Notes under the pieces: model-generated | Seen by the model: the letters and a program-made list of their open reading frames with translations, nothing else | Told to the model about the DNA's origin: nothing | Databases searched by the model: none | Assembly: GCF_000765475.1 (NCBI RefSeq) | Contig: NZ_JRHO01000014.1 | Span: forward strand, 823,687 to 887,686 | Origin: Methanococcoides methylutens | GTDB taxonomy: Archaea; Halobacteriota; Methanosarcinia; Methanosarcinales; Methanosarcinaceae | DNA: 64,000 nucleotides | Reading direction: 5' to 3' | Part shown: piece after piece, positions 59,748 to 60,593 of the stretch | Layout of the letters: every line of letters begins with the position of its first letter | Position numbering within the stretch: position 1 is the stretch's first letter | Translations under genes and position numbers: made by a program

Positions 59748-60593
59748 TCACAAAGAGATCAATATAATAGCAGTCAAAGCAAGTAGAACTCCTACCCACT
59801 GCATTGATGAGAGACGTTCTTTCAGGATGATCCATGCAAGTAGAACTGTGCTTCCAGGATACAAAGATGCGATCACTGTCGCAATATCAAGTCGGCCTAC
59901 CTAAGAAGCCAGTGCAAAGAAAAGGTTCCCTGCAGCATCAAGAATTCCTGCAAGTATTATTAAAGGGAGGACTGCCTTCGAAGGCAAAGTTGCTGATTTT
60001 CTGAGCATGGCAAATCCCAGGATAACCACAACAGCAGAGATCTTTGCAACCGTAAGAGGCCAGAAAACTGCCGATTCACTGAAAAGGTCGACAGATATGA
60101 AGAAGATACCAAATCCAACACCTGCCAGCAACGGATAGAACAGGTCCTGTCTTTTGACCTCACCTTTCTCGCCGGTACTGCCGATAAGCCACATGGCTGC
60201 AATAGCCAACACAAAACCTGCGATCTGGTGCCCTGCAGGCAAACCTTCATTGATAGCACCATAGATCACGGGTAAAGCAACGGTCACCACGGCAGATACC
60301 GGGGCTGCGACTCCCATCTTACCCATGGAAAGTGCATGATAGAGTGCCAGAAGACCAAAACTGCCGGCAACACCTGCAACAAATCCCCAGAACATGCCAT
60401 TCATTGGCGGGAACTCTTCTGAGAAAAATAATGCAAGAAATGGCAAAAGAACAAGACCTACTGCCTGTGTTATTATTACAACAGAATAGACACTGGCACG
60501 TTTTGTCGCAAAACCACCACCAAAATCCGCAGCACCCCAGGTTGCAGCTGCTGCAAGGCTGAAGAAGACGACAAGGATCTCAGGAGATATCAT
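59748..60593 (-). CDS. EamA/DMT-family transporter with in-frame TAG at codon 231
   Basis: The 281-codon frame encodes a ten-helix drug/metabolite transporter with two EamA repeats, starting [23 protein letters not shown] at 59901-59903 (codon 231) interrupts it after FALAS, and the frame continues for 50 codons with exactly the expected last two helices, [20 protein letters not shown] then [19 protein letters not shown], to TGA at 59748. The C-terminus without these helices would be incomplete. Either UAG is read as pyrrolysine, or the gene is a recent nonsense mutant; a single change from CAG (Gln) would explain it. GGAG 8 nt before ATG at 60593 supports the start. Confidence 0.8.

Follow-up and report, generated by a model that had tools for sequence, protein, structure and literature searches.

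A predicted pyrrolysine codon in an EamA-family transporter gene of Methanococcoides methylutens

The results indicate that an EamA/DMT-family transporter gene of M. methylutens, a methanogen that lives on methylamines, located on the minus strand at 59748..60593 of the 64,000-nucleotide stretch of DNA analysed here (the window), contains an in-frame TAG codon (codon 231; 59901..59903, minus strand) that is very probably read as pyrrolysine (Pyl), yielding a full-length transporter of 281 residues in which Pyl would have come to occupy residue 231 by near-neutral drift. From the sequence of the gene, the pyl genes, the behaviour of TAG and the constraint on the codons after it, we infer the neutrality of the change, the insertion of Pyl, and the efficiency of that insertion.

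The EamA gene on both sides of the TAG

The reading frame consists of 230 codons, the TAG, 50 stop-free codons (59751..59900, minus strand) as claimed in an earlier note on this DNA, and a TGA terminator (59748..59750, minus strand) that is also a TGA in the five closest relatives, where gene length is equal. Read through the TAG, the product matches Pfam EamA in two stretches (E 1.7e-18), and the second domain (PF00892) spans residues 154-280, crossing the TAG, such that homology continues on both sides of it. The protein has the two EamA repeats and the about ten transmembrane helices that characterise the family. A structure model in which Lys stands in place of Pyl has a mean pLDDT of 89 and about 10 predicted helices, seen as eleven helical segments, with a kink dividing TM9 in two. 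Residue 231 lies at the end of helix 8 of the model, adjoining the turn that precedes helix 9, and the helices after the TAG span residues 235-257 and 263-280. The 50 codons encode the last two transmembrane helices, TM9 and TM10, which termination at the TAG would take away. An internal restart 3' of the TAG was considered and rejected, because a product of 50 residues and two helices could not make up a transporter. A PDB sequence search with the transporter found no relative at E 0.01.

Comparison with 29 relatives shows that the codon at this site is CAG in 19, CAA in one, GAA in eight and CGG in one, in agreement with the proposal of the earlier note that glutamine is frequent here and that the TAG arose from CAG. 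CAG is present in the sister species (G020, with 95% DNA identity to this genome, G000, in the aligned part of 780 kb), in four more congeners, and in M. burtonii-like genomes; other, more distant homologues have Lys, Gln or His at the aligned site; and the TAG is seen in none of the other species compared. Because the sister species and most relatives have CAG, the TAG represents one C-to-T step on the branch of this species, a recent change that postdates the split from the sister species. One homologue listed with a TAG (G044:C102) was set aside, its TAG being just 5' of the start codon and not internal.

The 3' part of the gene, which would be free to decay had the TAG ended its use, has accumulated five synonymous and two nonsynonymous substitutions on the G000 branch, the latter both conservative I/V exchanges, and aligns with five congeners with neither gaps nor stops. 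Approximately 69% of substitutions would be expected to be nonsynonymous if change were random, for which the probability of two or fewer nonsynonymous substitutions of seven is about 0.03. The results provide modest evidence for coding constraint past the TAG, there being seven substitutions, some of them perhaps older than the TAG, and the 3' part shows no decay. Broken EamA homologues were observed in other genera (L127, G035:C2; L125, G063:C15; L126, G052:C3), with frameshift, TGA and many stops among the lesions; ordinary decay is thus seen in the family.

TAG usage and the pyrrolysine machinery of the genome

The window holds 51 plausible genes; TGA is the terminator of 27 and TAA of 23, and the sole TAG is the one inside the EamA gene, as expected from the earlier statement that no gene in the window ends in TAG. 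Comparison with the sister species over 780 kb (31% of the genome), containing 556 conserved coding-like ORFs, extends this pattern: the terminator is TGA for 292 of these ORFs, TAA for 257 and TAG for 7. Five of the seven are recognisable genes interrupted by the TAG (mtbB, mttB, the EamA gene, and genes for a TatD-like hydrolase and a histidine kinase); of the other two, one looks antisense and probably not a real gene, and in the second a TGA follows the TAG by three codons, so that nearly all seven appear not to be true terminators. Orthologous stop codons were swapped between the two species 25 times between TAA and TGA and not once between TAG and either, a result with a probability of about 4e-5 if TAG made up a third of swaps. 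Gene-internal stops present in one of the two species and flanked on either side by coding signal numbered four for TAG and zero for TAA and TGA in the same 780 kb, the final sorting being by hand; with such counts, chance is insufficient as an explanation. The tallies over the 780 kb come from orthologue-based comparisons. A third-position scan for coding signal around stops was dropped, since antisense shadow frames swamped the signal, as was a codon-usage scan, in which TAA and TGA still caught neighbouring same-frame genes; TAG candidates at 650521, 712627 and G020 1861034 are antisense frames by sequence and were set aside. We conclude, on the basis of these comparisons, that TAG appears to act as a sense codon in this genome, nearly absent as a terminator and non-interchangeable with TAA and TGA.

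The genome (2.51 Mb, 99.87% complete) is a draft of 15 contigs, of which the contig containing the window comprises 1.0 Mb. The pyl genes, whose absence would have told against the proposal of the earlier note, are present in this Methanococcoides genome as a complete pylTSBCD cassette: tRNA-Pyl (CUA anticodon), PylS, PylB, PylC, PylD and MtbA form one cluster at C9:281-287 kb, and the matches to PylS, PylB, PylC and PylD all exceed NCBIfam cut-offs. The genome thus has what a host requires to make Pyl proteins, namely tRNA-Pyl(CUA), PylS and PylBCD. The contig containing the window also carries mtbB and mttB, each with a TAG within the known Pyl sequence context. There is one full-length copy of aRF1, together with two weaker matches under the cut-off. 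A search for PYLIS_1 (RF01982) gave no match anywhere in the genome, and the RNA fold 3' of the EamA TAG is nothing unusual, being weaker than those of shuffled sequences (z +1.5); PYLIS-type elements are not required for Pyl.

In-frame TAG in other genes

The histidine kinase gene (G000:C14:806013-808319) and the TatD-like hydrolase gene (G000:C14:309766-310614) each have an in-frame TAG where the sister species has GAG, with 512 codons after the TAG in the former and an open frame in 10 of 10 congeners for the latter. A NUDIX protein gene (G000:C14:768218-768610), in which codon 75 changed from CAG to TAG, is a fifth instance of the gene-internal stops confined to one species that were counted above, with fewer differences by which to judge it. 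In-frame TAG codons were observed, in addition, in genes for a PAS/GAF kinase (G000:C14:772798-774882), a pentapeptide-like protein (G000:C14:255580-256965), and a QueG-like Fe-S protein (G000:C14:232668-233396), the last common to this genome and the sister species.

Two conserved or essential genes outside methylamine metabolism contain in-frame TAG. For an RNA ligase of the Pab1020/Rnl3 type (PF09414 plus the Pab1020 C-terminal region; L135, G000:C14:975811-976986), the same codon is TAG in 9 of 11 Methanococcoides genomes, including this one (L134-L144); the remaining two have Cys (TGC) and Gln (CAG), respectively, and the flanks are well conserved. This codon appears to be a Pyl site long retained outside methylamine metabolism. 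For the DNA polymerase D small subunit, an in-frame TAG is present in the linker region in the sister species (L145), and a TAG is present at a Gln site 5' of the GNHD motif in G023 (L152), G016 (L154) and G017 (L155), three species on the M. burtonii side; the gene of this genome has no in-frame TAG. Because the phosphoesterase motif follows the TAG, and because the protein is a subunit of a replicative polymerase, read-through is very likely needed in these species. Both genes support translation of TAG throughout the genus, whose genes make hardly any use of TAG as a terminator.

We lean towards the broader view that TAG is a full sense codon in Methanococcoides, that some non-methylamine Pyl sites are kept genus-wide, that housekeeping depends on Pyl, and that the EamA gene is a recent case out of, perhaps, a few dozen. 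Were every TAG read in this way, transporters, kinases, and replication or RNA-repair proteins of these methanogens would contain Pyl, and the pyl genes would be tied to more than methylamine growth; this dependence is open to direct testing in the RNA ligase and in the small subunit of DNA polymerase D. Standard annotation truncates such genes at the TAG or labels them pseudogenes.

Pyrrolysine insertion, rival explanations and known systems

According to the reading that we favour, the glutamine codon CAG of an ordinary EamA transporter became TAG after the split from the sister species, Pyl-tRNA(CUA) supplied through pylTSBCD would compete with the single full-length aRF1 at every TAG, and the ribosome would insert Pyl at the EamA TAG, so that position 231 of the full-length transporter would be Pyl. 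With so few genes ending at TAG, reading the codon would cost little. The site holds Gln, Glu, Arg, Lys or His in relatives; it would accommodate a side chain that is long and polar or resembles lysine, and the change would be near neutral. No special role for Pyl in the transporter is expected, and nothing suggests one.

At the EamA gene, a null mutation of very recent date would leave much the same picture. Under that explanation translation ends at the TAG, the cell makes, or degrades, a 230-residue protein without TM9 and TM10, and the interruption is too young for the 3' part to have decayed; the youth of the TAG, absent from the sister species, agrees with this, and loss of the gene might be tolerated given a 60% identical EamA paralogue elsewhere in the genome. 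However, the paralogue occurs also in several congeners whose own EamA gene stays intact, TAG seldom ends genes here, several other intact genes hold a TAG (in one case conserved genus-wide), and in the same 780 kb no real gene turned up with a comparably young interruption by TAA or TGA, leaving a recent pseudogene improbable. The genome does keep an ordinary aRF1, and substrate-dependent reading of UAG has been reported in the bacterium Acetohalobium arabaticum (PMC8211752, PMC4153887), observations compatible with a regulatory switch in which the full-length protein is made when Pyl-tRNA is abundant, during growth on methylamines, and a truncated protein otherwise. We consider such a conditional dual product very unlikely, in view of the near-complete purging of TAG as a terminator, which fits constitutive reading, and of the occurrence of the EamA TAG in no other species, which makes a selected switch unlikely; PMC4153887 argues for constitutive UAG reading in Methanosarcina and in Ca. 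M. alvus. To a sequencing or assembly error we give the least credence of all: the TAG is a one-base difference within a draft assembly, but the contig is long, the genome is nearly complete, the EamA frame is otherwise free of defects, and similar TAGs occur elsewhere in the genome and in single-contig congener genomes.

The favoured reading, Pyl insertion after near-neutral drift, has a counterpart in Thg1 (tRNA-His guanylyltransferase) of Methanosarcina acetivorans, for which Heinemann et al. (2009) reportedly showed Pyl insertion experimentally and proposed its origin by neutral evolution. The EamA gene resembles Thg1 in that a gene outside methylamine metabolism, in a member of the Methanosarcinaceae, carries a lone in-frame TAG restricted to one species, with a sense codon in relatives; it differs in that Thg1 is a soluble enzyme with experimentally shown Pyl, whereas the EamA protein is a membrane transporter with predicted Pyl. 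Kivenson and co-workers (Science 2025) are said to have described an archaeal Pyl code in which all TAG codons specify Pyl, with proteomics support in some archaea, including Methanococcoides; TAG as a sense codon is likewise the pattern in this genome. Passages of PMC2933860 and PMC4153887 cite the Pyl of Thg1, outside methylamine metabolism, as shown earlier, and in PMC3639795 neutral drift is discussed as the source of such Pyl. The earlier note's proposal of Pyl outside methylamine metabolism is thus supported for the EamA gene by the evidence above; the novelty that it implied does not hold, and the EamA gene is a further instance of a known phenomenon.

Ca. Methanomethylophilus alvus, which belongs to another order of methanogens, has sixteen predicted Pyl proteins and a TAG terminator frequency of 1.6% (PMC4153887), and resembles this genome in its few TAG terminators and in the in-frame TAGs scattered over many genes outside methylamine metabolism. 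One of its predicted Pyl proteins, AGI86346.1 (289 aa; 'bacterial/archaeal transporter family protein'; PMC4153887, Table 7), is a transporter, possibly an EamA protein, of a size similar to the EamA gene product. In our reading, the tRNA-Pyl that decodes the TAG of the EamA gene also decodes those of the MtmB, MtbB and MttB methylamine methyltransferases of this genome; in the methyltransferases Pyl is catalytic and conserved, whereas in the EamA protein it would replace a variable residue. One MtmB-family match (L033, G000:C5:118412-119761) is full-length and free of internal stops, TAG included, and may be an MtmB relative that lacks Pyl; several MtmB pieces besides it break off close to the Pyl site or at the end of a contig.
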